Assembly: GCF_000337515.1 (NCBI RefSeq)
Contig: NZ_AOIQ01000009.1
Coordinates: 62,001-126,000 of the forward strand
Source of the DNA: Halovivax asiaticus JCM 14624
GTDB taxonomy: Archaea > Halobacteriota > Halobacteria > Halobacteriales > Natrialbaceae
Direction: 5' to 3'
Length of the DNA: 64,000 nucleotides
Positions 39,096 to 46,612 of this stretch are shown here, piece by piece. The notes beneath the pieces were generated by a model. That model was not told where the DNA came from and did no database searches. It was given only the letters and a program-made list of their open reading frames with translations. Each line of letters starts with the position of its first letter. The stretch's first letter is position 1. Position numbers and translations under genes: made by a program.

Positions 39096-40256
39096 TCACG
39101 TCGCCAGCAATGCCGTCGTCGCCGATATGAGTGCCGTAGCCGCCTCGTGGATCTCATCGATCGAAACGTACTCTCGGTCGGCGTGTGCAACGGGACCCAC
39201 AGCATCGGCGAGCGAGCCGGGCCCGAAGACGACGGTCGGCGCCACGCCAGCGAAGTACGAGGCTTCCGTCGCCGCGCCGAACGCGCGAACGTCACCGCCG
39301 CTCGCGGCAGACAGCGTTAGAACGAGCGGATGATCGGGGTCGGTCGACCAGGCGTCGAAGAACGGGGTGGGTCGATCAGTGAAGGAGAACGAGACGTCGA
39401 TCGATGATGGGACGGCCGCATCGAACTGATCCAACAGCGTCGCCTCGAACGAGTCGGGCGTTTCAGGCGGGACCGGCCGACGATCCACTGTGAGTCGGGC
39501 ACTCGCCGGGACCTGGTTCGTCGCCTCGCCACCCTGAACGACCGTCGGGGTGAGCGTGGGGGCACCGAGTTGTGGATGGTCGCCAGGGACGTCGTCCCGG
39601 TCGTCGAACGAGCGGAGCGCGAGGAGGACCTCGGCGAGCGCGTCGACTGCATTGTTCCCCGTGTCGGGTCGGGCCGCGTGCGCGTGTTCACCACCGAGTT
39701 CGATCGTCCCCTCGAAGCGGCCGGGGGCCGCCGGACAGACGTCGAGTCCGGTGGGTTCGCCGACGATCACCGCATCCGCGTCGCGCAGTGGCGAATCGGC
39801 TCGCTCGACGAGGGAGCGTGCGCCCGTGGAGTACACCTCCTCGTCCGGCGTCAGCGCCAGCGTCAGTCGGCCGGAAGTGAGTTCGGTCGTGAGGAACGTG
39901 GCGAGCATCGCGGCGAGCGCGCCGGCCGCGTCGCAGGCACCCCGGCCGGAGAGCCGGTCGCCGTCGGGTCCCCACTCCGGCGGGACGTGCGGTGAGACCG
40001 TATCGAGGTGCGTATTCAGGACAATGTGTGAAACGGCGCGATCGGTGTTGCCAACCGCTGGTTCTCCCGAACCCCGAGTTACGACGAGGGTGCCGGTGGC
40101 GTCGACGGTCGGGTCGTGGCCGTGTGCGCCGAGGATCGATCGAACGTCCTCGCGGAGTTCGTCGACGCGCTCGTGCGTCTCGATCGAGACGGCGCGTTCG
40201 AGGAATTCGATCGGGTCGAAGCCGGTCCGGCTACCGTCCAGGGAGGCACGGTTCAT
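39096..40256 (-). CDS. dapE: M20 peptidase, probable succinyl-diaminopimelate desuccinylase
   Basis: A 386-residue M20 metallopeptidase: HIVLNTHLDTVSPHVPPEW (zinc His/Asp), LSGRGACDAAGALAAML, ALTPDEEVYSTGARSL (catalytic Glu), VGEPTGLDVCP, and a dimerisation domain with EHAHAARPDTGNNAVDALAE. Last gene of the DAP operon, overlapping dapF as ATGA. Position and the succinylase-type dapD support desuccinylation of N-succinyl-L,L-DAP; sequence alone could also fit an ArgE-like deacylase. A start two codons earlier (40262) is possible. Confidence 0.85.
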   Translation of the reverse strand: MNRASLDGSRTGFDPIEFLERAVSIETHERVDELREDVRSILGAHGHDPTVDATGTLVVTRGSGEPAVGNTDRAVSHIVLNTHLDTVSPHVPPEWGPDGDRLSGRGACDAAGALAAMLATFLTTELTSGRLTLALTPDEEVYSTGARSLVERADSPLRDADAVIVGEPTGLDVCPAAPGRFEGTIELGGEHAHAARPDTGNNAVDALAEVLLALRSFDDRDDVPGDHPQLGAPTLTPTVVQGGEATNQVPASARLTVDRRPVPPETPDSFEATLLDQFDAAVPSSIDVSFSFTDRPTPFFDAWSTDPDHPLVLTLSAASGGDVRAFGAATEASYFAGVAPTVVFGPGSLADAVGPVAHADREYVSIDEIHEAATALISATTALLAT

Positions 40257-41206
40257 CGGCATTCGCACTCGCTCACCGGCAACTCGTGATCCGTCTCGTG
40301 GACGACTGGCCCCTCCAGGACCGCCCGGTGGTGGGCGTCGAAGCGGACACGCAGCGTCCCACCTGGCGGATGCAGTTCCCACTCGCCGGACCGGGGTGCG
40401 TACGCGAGCCGGGAGGCCACGGCGGCGATCGCAACCGCGCCGGTGCCGCAGGCGGCGGTCTCGCCCTCGACGCCGCGCTCGTACGTCCGCTGGTCGAACA
40501 CGCACGAATCGGACGACCCTGCCGCGAGGGTCGACGTCGGGCTCGCGAGGGTCACGTTCGTCCCACGCGGGAACGCCTCGGCGTGACGGATCGCAGGACC
40601 GAATCGGTCGAGTTCGACGGAATCGACGTCCTCGACGAAGGCGACGACGTGTGGGACGCCGGTATCGACGGCGGTGATCCGGAGCGGCCCGTCGCCATCG
40701 AGCGAGCGGACCCGGGAGTCGGCGTCGAGGTCGACGACGTCGGATACTGGGCGGTCGACGACCGGCGCGTCCGCCGAGACGGGGACGGAAGCAGGGTCGA
40801 ATGCGGGACGGTTCATCTCGACGGCGATCTGCGCTGGGCCGTCGGCGTCGGCGGAAACACGCTCCGCGGGCCTGGTTCCCGCCTGCGTGTCGATCATGAC
40901 GGCATCCGCGCCGGTTCGTTCCATCGCCCACGCGGCGGCACAGCGGGCGCCGTTGCCACACATCGGGGCGACGCTCCCGTCGGGCTGGACGAGCGTCATC
41001 ACGACGCGTGGCGGGGCGAACTCGGGTTCGAGTGCGAGGAAGAGGACGCCATCGACGCCGAACCCCTCGTCGGGGTCACAGACACGCCGAGCGAACGAGC
41101 GGCGCTTCGGAACCGGCTCGTCGGCGTCCACGAGCAGGAAGTCGTTGCCGGTCCCGTGGTATCGCGAGGCGGCGATCGTCTCGCGATCGACGGCGATCGT
41201 ACTCAT
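40253..41206 (-). CDS. dapF: Diaminopimelate epimerase
   Basis: Converts L,L-DAP to meso-DAP. The 317-residue protein has two mirror domains, each with a catalytic cysteine: APMCGNGARCAAAWAM and ETAACGTGAVAIAAVAS. The N-terminal SRYHGTGNDFLLVDAD matches the family start. It overlaps lysA and dapE by four bases each. Haloarchaea have no peptidoglycan, so meso-DAP here serves only lysine synthesis. Confidence 0.95.
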   Translation of the reverse strand: MSTIAVDRETIAASRYHGTGNDFLLVDADEPVPKRRSFARRVCDPDEGFGVDGVLFLALEPEFAPPRVVMTLVQPDGSVAPMCGNGARCAAAWAMERTGADAVMIDTQAGTRPAERVSADADGPAQIAVEMNRPAFDPASVPVSADAPVVDRPVSDVVDLDADSRVRSLDGDGPLRITAVDTGVPHVVAFVEDVDSVELDRFGPAIRHAEAFPRGTNVTLASPTSTLAAGSSDSCVFDQRTYERGVEGETAACGTGAVAIAAVASRLAYAPRSGEWELHPPGGTLRVRFDAHHRAVLEGPVVHETDHELPVSECECR

Positions 41207-42513
41207 TCGACCACCTCCCGCCCGGTAGCGACCTCCAGGCGCGCCAGATCGGAGAGCGACTCACGCCGACGAGCGAGCCGAGCATCGGACCCATCGACGA
41301 CGACCGTCGCCGGTCGCGGCCTGGCGTTGTACGTACTCGTCATCTCGTAGCCGTAGGCGCCGGCGTTCCCGACGGCGAGCAATTCGCCGCGTTCGACGCG
41401 CGGGAACGATCGGTCCGCACAGATGAGGTCCGCGCTCTCACAGACCGGCCCGGACACCGTCTGCGAGATGGTCTCGCGGTCGGGTGCGTCCGGCGCGAGC
41501 GGGCGGACCGCGTGGGACGCGTCGTACAGGGCCGGCCGAAGGAGCGTCGTCATCCCCGCGTCGACGCCGACGACCCGTGTGGTCGGGGTCTCCTTGACGG
41601 TATTCGCTTCGGTCAGGAGGACGCCGGCGTCGGCGACGAGGTAGCGACCCGGCTCGATCGAGAGGCGCGCATCGACGTCGGCGAGTGCAGCACGGGTCGC
41701 GTTGGCGAGCGCGTCGAGTGCGAGTGGCGTCTCGTCCGAACGGTACGGGACGCCGAAGCCGCCACCCACCGAAACGAGGTCGAGGGAGCCGGTCGCATCG
41801 CAGACTTCAGTCACGAGGTCGGCGACGCGTGCGACGAACCGTCGGTGAGCCGCGCGCTGGTCGGCGTCGAGGACGCCCGAGCCGACGTGGGCGTGGAGGC
41901 CGACGAGGTCGAGGCCTCGATCGACAGCGTCGCGAGCGGTCTCGACGAGTCTGTCCGCCGGGAGCCCGAACGTCGCGTCGCCGCCGGTCCGGACGGCCGC
42001 GTGGTGGCCCGCGCCGACACCGGGAGTGACCCGCAAGCAGAGTCGACCGCCGTAGCCCAACTCGGCGAGGCGACGGACGGTGTCCCAAGCGCCGGCCGTG
42101 ATCGTGAGCGTCGGGTCCTCCCGCCACGCGTCCACGACGTACTCCAGGTCGCGCTCAGGCGGGTTCACGGCGGTGTAGCGGATCAGATCGCCGGGGATAC
42201 CCGCCTCGCGGGCGCGATACACTTCGCCGGCCGAGGCGCACTCGATCGTCGCTCCGTCGGCACAGAGCACGCGGAGGAGGTCGACGAGCCCGTTCGCCTT
42301 CGCCGCGTAGGCGATCTCGGCGTCGGGAAACGCGGCCGCGAGGCGGCGATAGTTCGCCCGGGCGCGATCGAGATCGAGGACGTACAGCGGCGTTTCGAAC
42401 GCGTCGGCGAGCGAGCGGAGACGGGACGCGTCCCAGTCGGCGAGGCGTCGAACGGGCGGCCAGGAACCGCCGTCCCCCGCGCCGCCGGCACCGTCGGCGG
42501 ATCGGTCGCTCAC
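41203..42513 (-). CDS. lysA: Diaminopimelate decarboxylase
   Basis: PLP enzyme making L-lysine from meso-DAP. The 436-residue protein has PLP Lys72 in IAYAAKANG, the barrel motif LVGLHAHVGSGV (His), VSVGGGFGVPY, SIEPGRYLVADAG (PLP phosphate region), and the C-terminal active-site GPVCESADLICAD. The Gly/Ala-rich N-terminal ~18 residues are probably disordered. Fourth gene of the DAP operon, overlapping dapD and dapF by four bases. Confidence 0.96.
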   Translation of the reverse strand: MSDRSADGAGGAGDGGSWPPVRRLADWDASRLRSLADAFETPLYVLDLDRARANYRRLAAAFPDAEIAYAAKANGLVDLLRVLCADGATIECASAGEVYRAREAGIPGDLIRYTAVNPPERDLEYVVDAWREDPTLTITAGAWDTVRRLAELGYGGRLCLRVTPGVGAGHHAAVRTGGDATFGLPADRLVETARDAVDRGLDLVGLHAHVGSGVLDADQRAAHRRFVARVADLVTEVCDATGSLDLVSVGGGFGVPYRSDETPLALDALANATRAALADVDARLSIEPGRYLVADAGVLLTEANTVKETPTTRVVGVDAGMTTLLRPALYDASHAVRPLAPDAPDRETISQTVSGPVCESADLICADRSFPRVERGELLAVGNAGAYGYEMTSTYNARPRPATVVVDGSDARLARRRESLSDLARLEVATGREVVE

Positions 42514-43349
42514 GATCGGAGCACCTCCTCGCGTTCCGTCGCTTCGAGCGTGCGATCCTCGAGCGCCGTCGCGACGACGGCCGGCTTGTAGGCCCCGTCT
42601 TCGAAGAGGTCGTGCTCGCCGACCGAAGACTCGACGAAGCGGGTGAACGCACGCCGTTCGGGCGGCAAGTGACCGTACACGATCTCGTCAGTGACGAGAT
42701 CGTAGACGGGGATTCGGGGCGTCAGGAGCGTGTTCTCCCCGACGACAGCTCCTTCGCCGACGACGAAGCCCGACGTTACGCGACAGCCGGCGCCGAGGGA
42801 GACGCCGTCCTCGATCACGACCGGGGCGTTCTCGACCGGTTCAAGTACGCCACCGACGAGGGTGTTCGCCCCGAGCTTGACTTCGCGGCCGATCTGGGCG
42901 CAGGAGCCGACCGTGTCGCACGAGTCGACGAGGGTCCCGTCGCCGACGTGCGCGCCGACGTTCACGAACGACGGGCTCATCAGGATACAGTCGGCGCCGA
43001 CACATGCACCCCGGCGGACGACAGTTCCGTCGGGCGTGTTTCGCGTTCCGCGTGCCCGGTACGTGTCGGTATCGGCCAGCGAGAGGACGTCGTTGTAGGT
43101 GACGTCGCCGTACTCGCGGGCGCGCGTCTCGCGGAGGGCGAAAGTTAGTAAGATCCCGCGCTTGACCCACTCGATGACCTGCCACTCGTCTCCCTCCTTC
43201 TCGGCCGCGCGGACCTCGCCGGTCTCCAGCGCATCGAGGAAGTCGACGAGAACGGCCAGATCGTCCTCGGTGATCGTCTCGGCGTCGATGTCCCCGATCT
43301 CGTGTCGCGTCCAGAGAGTCTCGACGTCGGCTTCGAGGGCCCCCGTCAT
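42510..43349 (-). CDS. dapD: 2,3,4,5-tetrahydropyridine-2,6-dicarboxylate N-succinyltransferase
   Basis: A 279-residue acyltransferase with a helical N-terminal domain and a left-handed beta-helix of hexapeptide repeats (about residues 120-225: GACVGADCILMSPSFVNVGA, HVGDGTLVDSCDTVGSCAQI, EDGVSLGAGCRVTSGFVVGE). It succinylates tetrahydrodipicolinate and so defines the succinylase branch of the DAP pathway. Overlaps dapB and lysA by four bases. Confidence 0.95.
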   Translation of the reverse strand: MTGALEADVETLWTRHEIGDIDAETITEDDLAVLVDFLDALETGEVRAAEKEGDEWQVIEWVKRGILLTFALRETRAREYGDVTYNDVLSLADTDTYRARGTRNTPDGTVVRRGACVGADCILMSPSFVNVGAHVGDGTLVDSCDTVGSCAQIGREVKLGANTLVGGVLEPVENAPVVIEDGVSLGAGCRVTSGFVVGEGAVVGENTLLTPRIPVYDLVTDEIVYGHLPPERRAFTRFVESSVGEHDLFEDGAYKPAVVATALEDRTLEATEREEVLRS

Positions 43350-44158
43350 GCGTCGATCACCTCGCGAAAGTCGTACCAGCCGGGGTCGCGACCGGCGAGC
43401 CAGGCGGCCGCGTCAAGGGCACCGGCGGCGAAGACGCCGCGATCGCCCGCACGGTGGCACAGCCGGATCTCCTCGTGATTGCCGGCCAACAGAATCTCGT
43501 GCTCGCCGGCGATGGCGCCCGCACGGACGGAATGGACGCCGATCTCGCCTGGTTCGCGTGGCGCGTCTCCCTCCCGGCCGTGGACCCGGTCAGGAATCTC
43601 ATCCTCGCCGGGGTGAGCCGATTCGAGCGTCGCCAGCAAGCGGGTGGTGGTACCGCTTGGGGCATCGCGCTTCCCGCTGTGGTGCGTCTCGACGAGTTCG
43701 ATGTCGTAGTCGGGGAGCCGTCGAACCGCCTCGGCGAGCAGTTCGTCGAGGACGGCGACGCCGCGCGAGAAGTTCGAGGCGTGCAGGACCGGAACCGACT
43801 CGCTCGCTTCGCAGAGTCGGTCGAGCTGCGTCTCGTCCATACCGGTGGTTCCCGTGACGAACGGCACTCCTTCCTCCGCGCAGGTGACGGCGTAGTCGAC
43901 GGCGGCCCCCGCCCCCGTGAAATCGACAACCGCGTGGGGCTCCCGGTCGGCGATCAGCGCGTCGAACGCGACGGCGGGCTCGATCTCGACTCCCTCGACG
44001 GCGTCGGACGCCGGCGACCGATTGACGGCGAAGACAACGTCGCAATCCGGCCGTTCGACCGCCGTGGCGAGGACTACCCGCCCCATGCGGCCGGTCGCGC
44101 CGGTGACGCCGAGCCGAAGCGGCCCCGCCGAATCGAGCGACGATGAGCGGTCCGTCAC
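43346..44158 (-). CDS. dapB: 4-hydroxy-tetrahydrodipicolinate reductase
   Basis: A 270-residue NAD(P)H enzyme: Rossmann motif LGVTGATGRMGRVVLATAV, PHAVVDFTGAGAAVDY, TGTTGMDETQLDRL, catalytic region VETHHSGKRDAPSGTTTRL. The start is taken as the GTG at 44158, which overlaps the dapA stop as GTGA; the longer frame is a shadow of dapA. Second gene of the DAP operon. Confidence 0.94.
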   Translation of the reverse strand: MTDRSSSLDSAGPLRLGVTGATGRMGRVVLATAVERPDCDVVFAVNRSPASDAVEGVEIEPAVAFDALIADREPHAVVDFTGAGAAVDYAVTCAEEGVPFVTGTTGMDETQLDRLCEASESVPVLHASNFSRGVAVLDELLAEAVRRLPDYDIELVETHHSGKRDAPSGTTTRLLATLESAHPGEDEIPDRVHGREGDAPREPGEIGVHSVRAGAIAGEHEILLAGNHEEIRLCHRAGDRGVFAAGALDAAAWLAGRDPGWYDFREVIDA

Positions 44159-45078
44159 GACGCGTTCACCTCCGCAGGTGGCTCGTCGCCCGGGAACGCA
44201 TCGTACGCGTCGAGCACCGATTCCAGGTGATGGCGGTTTTCCGGAGAGAGACGCGTCAGCGGCGAACGCAGGTTCGGCGGCGCGTCCTCGCGGATCGCCA
44301 GCGCCTCCGTGACCGGAATCGGGTTCGTTTCGCAAAAGAGCGCGCGAAAGAGCGGGCCGAGGTCGTGGTGAAGTGCGCGGGCGCGCTCGTAGTCGCCGTC
44401 GAGCGCGGCGTCGACCATCGCGGCCGTTCGCTCCGGTTCGACGTTCGCGGCGACGCTGATCGCGCCGGTCCCCCCGACCGAGCAGATCGGTAGCGTGAGC
44501 GCGTCGTCGCCGGAGAGGACGGCGAAGTCATCGTCTCGGGTACGCTCCACGATCTCGCCGATCGCGTTCAGGTCGCCCTCGGCGGCCTTGTAACCGGCAA
44601 TATTCGAATGGCTCGCCAGCTCGACGACGGTGTCGGGTTCGATCGTCCGGCCGGTCCGCGACGGGACGTTGTAGACGATCTGCGGAAGGTCCACGGCGTC
44701 TGCGATCGTCCGGTAGTGCACGGCGAGTCCTCGCTGTTCGGGCCTGTTGTAGTACGGCGAGATGAGCAAGAGCGCGTCGGCGCCCGCGTCGGCGGCGCGT
44801 TCGGAGAGGGCGAGCGCTTCGTGCGTGCTGTTCGAGCCGCTGCCGGCGATCACGGGCACGTCGACGGCGTCGACGACAGCCTCGATTACCCGGACGTGTT
44901 CGTCGTGGGTGAGCGTCGCGGACTCGCCCGTCGAGCCGACAGGAACGAGGCCGGCGACGCCGGCCGCTTCGAGGCGGCGAGCGTCGGCGCGGAGCGTTTC
45001 GAAGTCGATGCGGTCGGCGGCGTCGAACGGCGTACACATCGCCGGGTAGACGCCGGTGAAGTCGATGTCGTGTGTCAT
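44155..45078 (-). CDS. dapA: 4-hydroxy-tetrahydrodipicolinate synthase
   Basis: Condenses pyruvate with aspartate semialdehyde, the first committed lysine step. The 307-residue TIM barrel has VPVGSTGESATLTHDEHVR, LLLISPYYNRPEQRGL, QIVYNVPSRTGRTIEP (Tyr) and the Schiff-base Lys in NIAGYKAAEGDL. First gene of the six-gene DAP operon. The ATG at 45078 is preceded by a perfect 8-3-8 inverted repeat 15-33 bases upstream. Confidence 0.95.
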   Translation of the reverse strand: MTHDIDFTGVYPAMCTPFDAADRIDFETLRADARRLEAAGVAGLVPVGSTGESATLTHDEHVRVIEAVVDAVDVPVIAGSGSNSTHEALALSERAADAGADALLLISPYYNRPEQRGLAVHYRTIADAVDLPQIVYNVPSRTGRTIEPDTVVELASHSNIAGYKAAEGDLNAIGEIVERTRDDDFAVLSGDDALTLPICSVGGTGAISVAANVEPERTAAMVDAALDGDYERARALHHDLGPLFRALFCETNPIPVTEALAIREDAPPNLRSPLTRLSPENRHHLESVLDAYDAFPGDEPPAEVNAS

Positions 45079-45092
45079 CTGGTCGGTGTGGG

Positions 45093-45111
45093 ACGGGGCA
45101 ACCTGCCCCGT
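45093..45111 (-). promoter_or_regulatory. dapA-proximal leader hairpin
   Basis: ACGGGGCA-ACC-TGCCCCGT, perfect 8-base arms with a 3-base loop, ending 14 bases before the dapA ATG on the minus strand. In RNA it is a very stable GC-rich hairpin next to the translation start. Confidence 0.55.
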
Positions 45112-45151
45112 GGAGCCGGGCCGCGGACCGTCCTCAGTACCGTGCGGACGC

Positions 45152-45172
45152 TACCGACCCGGCAGGTCGGTA
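45152..45172 (-). promoter_or_regulatory. dapA leader hairpin 2
   Basis: TACCGACC-N5-GGTCGGTA, perfect 8-base arms, about 75-95 bases upstream of dapA. It belongs to the series of inverted repeats in the proposed leader. Confidence 0.5.
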
Positions 45173-45191
45173 TCGAGAATCCACATCCCGT

Positions 45192-45217
45192 GGATTCGGT
45201 CGCTGCGTGTCGAATCC
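45192..45217 (-). promoter_or_regulatory. dapA leader hairpin 3
   Basis: GGATTCG-N12-CGAATCC, perfect 7-base arms, about 115-140 bases upstream of dapA. Confidence 0.45.
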
Positions 45218-45276
45218 GGATGCACCCGGGACGGGGGCGCCACGCCCGCCCAGAGCACGCTACAGGGATGTTTTGC

Positions 45277-45293
45277 CAAATTTCCCAAATTTG
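45277..45293 (-). promoter_or_regulatory. 17-base palindrome, candidate dap promoter/operator
   Basis: CAAATTT-CCC-AAATTTG, a perfect 7-3-7 palindrome in the only AT-rich patch upstream of dapA. AAATTT could serve as the TATA element, placing a transcription start near 45262 and giving a leader of about 185 bases. It has the same 7-3-7 geometry as the Lrp-type site at 22366-22382. Confidence 0.5.
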
Positions 45294-45343
45294 AAGAACG
45301 AGGTCGCCTCGGGGGCCGTCGCTGACGACCGATCGACGAGGCT

Positions 45344-45379
45344 GTCACTCACGACAGGCGTCGACGGGCCGTGAGTGAC
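45344..45379. promoter_or_regulatory. 10-base inverted repeat between dap operon and aminotransferase gene
   Basis: GTCACTCACG (45344-45353) and CGTGAGTGAC (45370-45379), perfect arms with a 16-base spacer. It lies between the candidate dap promoter (about 45290) and the aminotransferase TATA (45411-45415), so it could be a shared operator. Confidence 0.5.
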
Positions 45380-45410
45380 TGATCGCACGGCCCAAACAAT
45401 TCCGTCCACC

Positions 45411-45415
45411 TATAT
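45411..45415 (+). promoter_or_regulatory. TATA box upstream of the aminotransferase gene
   Basis: TATAT within CACCTATATGAGC, the best TATA match on the plus strand here. It would start transcription near 45440 and leave a 5' leader of about 110 bases before the ATG at 45548. Confidence 0.4.
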
Positions 45416-45457
45416 GAGCATTGTGCTCAGCCACGGTGGGACGCTCGATCGCGACCC

Positions 45458-45504
45458 CGAGCAGGTGGACCCGAAGCCGGAACGAGGGCCAGTCCACCAG
45501 CTGG
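45458..45504 (+). promoter_or_regulatory. Long hairpin in the aminotransferase 5' leader
   Basis: CGAGCAGGTGGAC (45458-45470) pairs with GTCCACCAGCTGG (45492-45504), 11 of 13 positions complementary around a 21-base loop. It ends 43 bases before the ATG. Confidence 0.4.
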
Positions 45505-45547
45505 CGCGACCGAAACCGGCTACTTGGAGCGCGACCCAGAACCAGGT

Positions 45548-46612
45548 ATGCTGTTTACGCCAGGGCCGACCGCCGTGCCGCCGTCCGTCAGGGAAGCGAT
45601 GGCCGAGCCGCAGCCGAATCCGGACCTCGATCCGGCGTTTCGCGACCGGTACCGTGACCTCTGTGCCAAGCTGGCCCGCGTGTACGACACTGACCACGAC
45701 GTGGTGGTCCTCGGCGGCGAGGGGATCCTCGGGCTCGAGGCAGCGATCGCGTCGCTGGTCGACCCGGGAGATCGCGTCCTCTGCGTCTCGAACGGGCGCT
45801 ACGGAGACGGCTTCGCCGACTTCGTCGGGTCGTACGACGGCGACCCCGAGCTCGTCGGCGGACCGTTCGACGACGGGTACGACCTCGACGCGGTCGAAGC
45901 GACGCTGGAGGACGCCGCGGCGGCCGGCGAACCGTTCGAACTGGCGACGATGGTCCACTGCGAGACGCCGACCGGGACGCTCAACGACCTCGAACCGGTC
46001 CTCGACCGCCTCGACGAGTACGACGTGCTCTCGGTGGTCGACGCCGTCTCCTCGCTCGGCGGAACGCCCGTTCCGACCGAGCGGATCGACATCTGTCTCG
46101 GCGGGTCCCAGAAGTGCTTCTCCGCGCCGCCGGGGCTGACGACCGCCGCGATCAGCGATCGTGCGTGGGAACGCATGGAGGCGCGTGAGCCCACCTCACT
46201 GTACACGAACTTCCTCCCGTGGCGCGACGTCTCCGACGGCTTCCCCTACACGCACCTCGACGCGAACGTGGCCGGCCTCGACGCGGCGGTGGACCTGGTA
46301 CTCGACGAGGGGGTCGAGGCCGTCTACGCACGCCACGAGGCGGCCGCCGAGCGCTGCCGAGAACGTGGCGCCGAACTCGGCCTCGAGCCGTATCCCGACG
46401 CCGAACGGGCATCTCCCACGGTCACCGCCTTCTCGCTTCCAGGCGAGGCCGAACGCGTACAGCAGCGTGTCGCTGCGGAAGAAGACGTCGTGCTGGCGAC
46501 CGGACTCGGCGAGCTGGCGGACGACATCCTCCGCATCGGCCACATGGGCTACAACGCCGACGTCGAGAAGGTCGATCGCGCGATGGACGCCGTCGAAGCC
46601 GTGCGCTCGTGA
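45548..46612 (+). CDS. Class V aminotransferase (alanine-glyoxylate / serine-pyruvate type)
   Basis: A 354-residue PLP enzyme: MLFTPGPTAVPPSVREAMAE (family start), VVVLGGEGILGLEAAIAS, VHCETPTGTLNDLEPVLDRL, SVVDAVSSLGGTPVPTE (Asp), and PLP Lys in CLGGSQKCFSAPPGL. C-terminal Arg region DDILRIGHMGYNA. The ATG at 45548 is preferred to an upstream TTG because it begins the conserved motif. Known members use alanine, serine or glyoxylate. It is divergent from the lysine operon, but whether it serves that pathway (N-succinyl-DAP aminotransferase is not otherwise seen here) is only a possibility. Confidence 0.9.
   Translation: MLFTPGPTAVPPSVREAMAEPQPNPDLDPAFRDRYRDLCAKLARVYDTDHDVVVLGGEGILGLEAAIASLVDPGDRVLCVSNGRYGDGFADFVGSYDGDPELVGGPFDDGYDLDAVEATLEDAAAAGEPFELATMVHCETPTGTLNDLEPVLDRLDEYDVLSVVDAVSSLGGTPVPTERIDICLGGSQKCFSAPPGLTTAAISDRAWERMEAREPTSLYTNFLPWRDVSDGFPYTHLDANVAGLDAAVDLVLDEGVEAVYARHEAAAERCRERGAELGLEPYPDAERASPTVTAFSLPGEAERVQQRVAAEEDVVLATGLGELADDILRIGHMGYNADVEKVDRAMDAVEAVRS

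Follow-up and report, generated by a model that had tools for sequence, protein, structure and literature searches.

The lysine operon of the haloarchaeon Halovivax asiaticus is, judging from sequence comparison, very probably controlled by a ribosome-mediated attenuator which senses charged lysyl-tRNA. The candidate attenuator lies upstream of dapA in the window, the 64,000-nucleotide stretch of DNA that was analyzed (contig NZ_AOIQ01000009.1, positions 62,001 to 126,000), and comprises a lysine-rich leader open reading frame (ORF), a conserved hairpin, and a further stem around this hairpin. Leaders rich in the matching amino acid were found at other genes as well, and haloarchaea are likely to use leaderless leader peptides for the ribosome-mediated attenuation of several amino acid operons and tRNA synthetase genes (Lys/dapA, Phe/pheS, Trp/trpS, and Ile-Val/ilvB). 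The initial annotation had proposed a structured leader RNA in front of the lysine operon, and a long, structured regulatory leader is indeed found there, its base pairs showing compensatory changes across species.

The lysine operon and its predicted leader transcript

The operon and its leader lie on the minus strand and include the following features.

44155 to 45078, minus strand: dapA, first gene of the lysine operon (PF00701, E 1.1e-85)
39096 to 44158, minus strand: remainder of the operon, with dapB, dapD, lysA, dapF, and a dapE-like M20 peptidase gene (Pfam matches)
45409 to 45416, minus strand: TATA-like box CATATAGG of the leader transcript, 26 nt upstream of the leader GTG
45260 to 45388, minus strand: leader peptide ORF of 42 codons, MRSVTHGPSTPVVSDSLVDRSSATAPEATSFFKFGKFGKTSL, with its GTG start at 45388 and its TAG stop at 45260 (conserved in 95 dapA upstream regions)
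45272 to 45292, minus strand: three AAA Lys codons of the leader, at 45290-45292, 45281-45283, and 45272-45274 (sequence)

The upstream regions of dapA orthologues were gathered from about 110 haloarchaeal genomes, giving 95 distinct regions. The haloarchaeal regions have a common layout, in which a TATA-like box is followed by a short ORF, its stop codon, a conserved hairpin, and a spacer leading to dapA, the spacer being CA-rich in most of the genomes compared. In the comparison of these 95 regions, the leader ORF is placed between the predicted promoter and dapA, the first structural gene. A TAAG-type box stands exactly 28 nt upstream of the leader start in 65 of 95 relatives and 26-32 nt upstream in most others, and this spacing implies that the leader ORF is leaderless. 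Counted from the dapA ATG, the promoter and the transcript start most likely lie about 310 nt upstream, with transcription predicted to begin at about 45388 together with the leader ORF. The leader of about 185 nt proposed in the initial annotation would accordingly be too short. That proposal had placed the start just downstream of an AT-rich palindrome at 45277-45293, which is present but is coding sequence (AAA TTT GGG AAA TTT G). As the palindrome belongs to the run that holds the Lys codons (AAA TTT GGG AAA TTT GGC AAA, for Lys-Phe-Gly-Lys-Phe-Gly-Lys), a promoter at this site is rejected.

A predicted lysine-rich leader peptide

The leader ORFs were selected by a stop codon adjoining the conserved element, and their Lys content was ignored. 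For three members of the same genus as Halovivax asiaticus (L001, L002, and L004), a start further upstream than the script's choice was taken because it fits the distance to the TATA box. The leader ORFs of the relatives begin with ATG or GTG, run for 23-42 codons, and stop 1-10 nt upstream of the hairpin. Every one of the 95 distinct leaders carries one to three Lys within its last 10 codons, where Lys makes up 21.3% of the codons as against 0.2% in the remainder of the leader; the corresponding share in the first 100 dapA codons of the 95 orthologues is 0.05%. The Lys codons are mostly AAA, with an AAA:AAG ratio of 192:13 in the leaders versus 5:16 in nine genes of the window. Ten more regions, in which the script found no ORF within its limits, were read by eye and a Lys leader is present in each.

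DapA itself is nearly free of Lys at its start, with five Lys in total over the first 100 codons of all 95 orthologues, as if the lysine enzyme avoids needing lysine.

Conserved RNA structures

Three structures are conserved across species, namely H1 within the leader ORF, the hairpin P1/P2 downstream of it, and the stem P0.

45344 to 45379, minus strand: H1, a perfect 10-bp hairpin within the leader ORF, with arms 45370-45379 and 45344-45353 (fold and covariation)
45222 to 45258, minus strand: P1/P2, the conserved hairpin element (13-pair consensus; covariance-model match E 1.4e-10)
45265 to 45271, minus strand: 5' strand of P0, ACAUCCC, directly 3' of the last Lys codon (minimum-energy fold; P0 covaries across haloarchaea)
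45183 to 45189, minus strand: 3' strand of P0, GGGAUGU (minimum-energy fold)

H1 folds better in the relatives than codon-order shuffles do (mean z -2.0), and its arms covary, with a z of -15 against arms swapped between species. In the RNAalifold consensus of P1/P2, 10 of 13 pairs show compensatory changes. Of the cells, 95.8% are paired, whereas shuffles reach 87.5% and slid versions 40-56%; double-changed (compensatory) cells number 82 versus 18.6 in shuffles. The loop of P2 is conserved in sequence, with the letters UrGC.

The stem P0 pairs RNA on the two sides of P1/P2. Its strands in the relatives reach -11.07 kcal/mol, compared with -8.44 when swapped between species (z -11.6). The region from -16 to -3 relative to P1 pairs with the region 6-19 nt after P1 (z -10.2), and the signal falls towards zero as the windows are shifted further upstream or downstream. 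It is retained with one sequence per genus within Natrialbaceae (z -6.0) and with one per lineage from the other families (z -5.3), with 0 of 500 swaps as good in either test. Examples of the paired strands are CGGACGCGAU/AUCGCGUCCG, GCGUCGAU/AUCGACGC, CGCGCAGU/ACUGCGCG, and GCGCGUC/GACGCGC. In Halovivax asiaticus, an inserted hairpin (45192-45217) shifts the 3' strand from its usual place, and P0 within the standard test window is no stronger there than with swapped partners; hence, its support in this genome comes from the minimum-energy fold and from the pattern of the family.

The hallmark of an intrinsic terminator, a GC-rich hairpin with a U-run, is missing, as no T/U-run follows the P1 or the P0 stem. 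An antiterminator formed by the 3' arm of H1 and the 5' arm of P1 fails the swap test across species, and so does an alternative pairing of the 3' arm of P1 with downstream RNA. With no U-run and no competing antiterminator found across species, the element cannot be equated with the terminator/antiterminator switch of enterobacteria. A pairing of the leader RNA with the dapA start, which would sequester that start, was likewise not supported.

Spacing of the last Lys codon to the hairpin

In 81 of 95 leaders, 14-16 nt separate the last Lys codon from the base at which P1 begins. When Lys positions were shuffled against stop positions, a mean of 52 and a maximum of 67 of the 95 fell at 14-16 nt (10000 shuffles), figures that are optimistic since the sequences are related. 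The distance from the stop codon to P1 varies between 1 and 10 nt, and the Lys codon shifts with the stop (r = -0.70), which keeps the Lys-to-P1 distance constant. Since the stop varies and Lys follows it, the distance of Lys to the hairpin is what is kept. The shift of the stop is found in several families with different C-termini, for example KKRSY, KKFFS, GKVGT, KRGR, and KRTQ. The front edge of a bacterial ribosome usually lies about 15 nt from the first base of the P site; with this footprint and a spacing of 14-16 nt, a ribosome awaiting Lys-tRNA at the last Lys codon would end just before P1. The P0 strand directly after Lys and the 14-16 nt spacing together fit, in the sequences compared, the geometry expected of a structure whose formation would depend on the position of the ribosome.

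In two natural variants among the ten regions read by eye (L117 and L131), the leader stop has changed from TGA to TGC and the frame enters the hairpin; the Lys-to-P1 distance is still 14 nt.

Genus-specific hairpins in the spacer

The initial annotation had listed three perfect hairpins upstream of dapA, and all three are found where they had been placed. A fourth, absent from that list, shares an arm with the first.

45192 to 45217, minus strand: 7-bp hairpin between P1 and the 3' strand of P0 (sequence and minimum-energy fold)
45152 to 45172, minus strand: 8-bp hairpin within spacer sequence specific to the genus (sequence)
45093 to 45111, minus strand: 8-bp hairpin, 14 nt upstream of the dapA ATG (sequence)
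45177 to 45197, minus strand: 8-bp hairpin GAATCCAC/GTGGATTC, sharing an arm with the hairpin at 45192-45217 (sequence)

The hairpin at 45177-45197 is mutually exclusive with P0 and with that at 45192-45217. Three other genus members carry the leader, and in all of them the hairpin at 45177-45197 has been preserved with compensatory changes. Perfect short hairpins number seven, against a mean of 0.36 in dinucleotide shuffles (reached by 0 of 2000), and three of at least 8 bp compare with 0.11 in such shuffles (P=0.0035). Taken as a whole, the 184 nt upstream of dapA fold with an ordinary energy (z -0.55). The three listed hairpins do not form the core of the feature; they are limited to the extended spacer of the genus, and what is conserved is H1, P1/P2, and P0.

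Distribution across haloarchaea

A covariance model of the element was built and searched in 119 genomes. It matched at E up to 0.1 in 104 of them, once per genome and upstream of dapA, in almost all haloarchaea searched. Ten extra weak matches were checked as further copies and rejected, all being inside unrelated genes. The element is absent from lineages with small genomes (f2, f9, and f11). In one member of the genus of Halovivax asiaticus (G003, a genome 99% complete), the dapA orthologue and dapD are missing along with the element, and lysine synthesis has probably been lost. The element is lost together with the lysine pathway.

Leaders at other amino acid genes

Phe, Trp, and Ile/Val are each enriched only at their own gene (pheS, trpS, and ilvB, respectively) in the same genomes. 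The pheS leaders end in GFGFFFAR before the stop, and 77% of the loci have at least three Phe in the last 14 codons. The trpS1 leader contains ALGWRWRRPSRADS. The ilvB leader ends in SIIVGA before the stop, and its hairpin GTAGGGG/CCCCTAC lies directly at the Val-Gly codons. The same scan detected no leader at hisG and trpB, and none that was convincing at thrC. The swap test was also applied to a possible P0-like stem following these leaders (pheS, ilvB, and trpS), and no clear signal emerged from the 8-17 sequences at hand; the ilvB hairpin is obvious by eye.

All three leaders occur in the Halovivax asiaticus genome. The pheS locus (L211, C17:111830-112777) has a leaderless Phe-rich leader, MTSESRRRCVAQKPLQSRTGFAFFFAR, with the conserved sequence CGGTGGA ... 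GAAACCGTCC downstream. At the ilvB locus (L306, C17:230968-232665), the last codons of the Ile/Val leader VRPNAPAHDFAAVTGAVAAILGGSIIVGA form the 5' arm of the perfect GTAGGGG/CCCCTAC hairpin, which is followed by a pyrimidine-rich tract and looks terminator-like. The Trp leader of the trpS1 locus (L237, C15:36119-36979), MRPALGWCWRRPSRADSVAVDGVAA, is followed by a conserved GCTCCCTTCGTTCTC tract.

The mapped transcripts of Haloferax volcanii contain upstream ORFs (uORFs) of 26 amino acids before pheS and 23 amino acids before a tryptophan--tRNA ligase gene (Babski et al. 2016, PMC4983044), and these lengths match the leaders found here. The same study does not list dapA in its uORF table and makes no mention of attenuation or leader peptides.

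Proposed mechanism and alternative explanations

The leader, its Lys codons, their fixed distance to P1, H1, P1/P2, and P0 with its position are all established at the level of sequence comparison. From these, we infer that the leader is translated, that ribosomes stall in it on lysine starvation, and that P0 is the 'off' structure. Transcription would start on the initiation codon of the leaderless Lys-rich ORF or immediately beside it. When lysine is present, the ribosome would pass the Lys codons, reach the stop, and leave. The 5' strand of P0 would then be free to pair with its partner strand 3' of the P1/P2 hairpin, and P0, P1, and P2, stacked into one stem, would lower the expression of dapA-dapB-dapD-lysA-dapF-dapE. 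When lysyl-tRNA is scarce, the ribosome would halt when its A site holds the last Lys codon, its leading edge then being at the base of P1. Because the 5' strand of P0 directly follows the last Lys, the halted ribosome would cover it, P0 would not form, and the operon would be expressed. The output may be premature transcription termination rather than RNA decay or translation control, probably with help from the archaeal factor FttA/aCPSF1 or from the hairpin itself. A hairpin motif terminated 59% of transcripts in a Haloferax volcanii reporter (PMC7237163), and FttA is held to be the likely cause of polarity in archaea (PMC12548453, review), which together make transcription attenuation plausible.

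The initial annotation had suggested a riboswitch or a translational attenuator, maybe of a new archaeal class; an attenuator and a new class agree with the present reading, and sensing of Lys by a translating ribosome fits better than a riboswitch. A metabolite-binding riboswitch, in which the P0/P1/P2 stem binds lysine or DAP and the short ORF is incidental, would account for a conserved, covarying RNA before a biosynthetic operon and for the conserved letters of the P2 loop, but it explains neither the presence of Lys codons in all leaders, nor their constant distance from P1, nor the Phe, Trp, and Ile-Val leaders. For an aptamer, one stem closed by a 9-nt loop would also be very small, and no Rfam family matches. 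At the gathering threshold, Rfam gave no match in the whole window, including the lysine riboswitch (RF00168) and the T-box, and at E up to 10 only one chance miRNA match was obtained in 44900-45600; a tRNA gene was looked for and none was found. The absence of a bacterial lysine riboswitch agrees with the initial annotation, and a riboswitch for lysine or DAP is considered highly improbable here.

There is similarly little probability that the leader is an operator or a protein-regulated RNA, with H1 or the palindrome near the start binding a transcription factor (e.g., of Lrp/AsnC type) or with a protein binding the P1/P2 loop. H1 covers roughly +5 to +45 of the transcript, and this position, like the sequence conservation of the P2 loop, would suit such a role. 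H1, however, is kept by compensatory change and has no fixed sequence, which argues for RNA, and the Lys codons would be unexplained; a protein may possibly read the P2 loop in addition to sensing by the ribosome. The peptide could also act through its basic C-terminus (nascent-chain arrest at KKR/KRKR) or as a small protein, with no codon-specific sensing of Lys, and Arg is indeed also enriched (19% of the last 10 leader codons). Leaders such as KFGKFGKTSL, GKFYTR, and FVKFFGKVGT, however, have only Lys in common, the constrained feature is the position of Lys relative to P1, and leaders with Phe, Trp, or Ile-Val stand at the matching genes, which makes this explanation most unlikely as well.

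Significance

According to a 2021 study (PMC8448881), neither transcription attenuation nor antitermination was known from any archaeon. A full-text search of mainly open-access journal articles retrieved no later report of archaeal attenuation. Attenuation as a principle is familiar from bacteria; its archaeal form, with the anatomy described here, appears to be new. If true, ribosome-mediated attenuation of the lysine operon would be an archaeal example of this kind, with a leader kept across the haloarchaeal families examined and with the Phe, Trp, and Ile/Val leaders at the matching genes as parallels. It would imply that archaeal ribosomes serve as amino acid sensors close to RNA polymerase, and would be a direct sign of functional transcription-translation coupling in haloarchaea. 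Reading them as leader peptides may explain some otherwise unexplained haloarchaeal uORFs and long 5'-UTRs, and the leader offers a ready genetic test in Haloferax volcanii.

Comparison with known systems

Ribosome-mediated transcription attenuation controls trp, his, thr, leu, ilvGMEDA/ilvBN, and pheST in enteric bacteria. Like these attenuators, the haloarchaeal leaders have a short ORF with cognate codons (tandem codons in bacteria) between the promoter and the first gene, and an RNA structure placed such that a stalled or terminating ribosome would decide its formation. The genes are also of the same kinds, namely amino acid pathways, pheS, and ilvB. The archaeal ORF differs in being leaderless, and the structure is a composite P0/P1/P2 stem around a hairpin with a conserved loop, in which neither a U-tract nor a conserved competing antiterminator was found. 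The lysine riboswitch (L box, RF00168) likewise sits before lysine biosynthesis genes, whereas the haloarchaeal fold is much smaller and contains a Lys leader ORF. As in the Rho-dependent tnaC/tna system of E. coli, factor-dependent termination within an untranslated spacer that has no U-tract terminator could be governed by where the ribosome stands on the leader ORF. The stall, however, is expected at cognate codons on starvation, unlike that of tnaC, which occurs at the stop codon with the inducer, and archaea have FttA/aCPSF1 in place of Rho, which they lack. The closest archaeal parallels are the uORFs in the long 5'-UTRs of Haloferax volcanii, which include leader ORFs upstream of pheS and of the tryptophan--tRNA ligase gene (PMC4983044).
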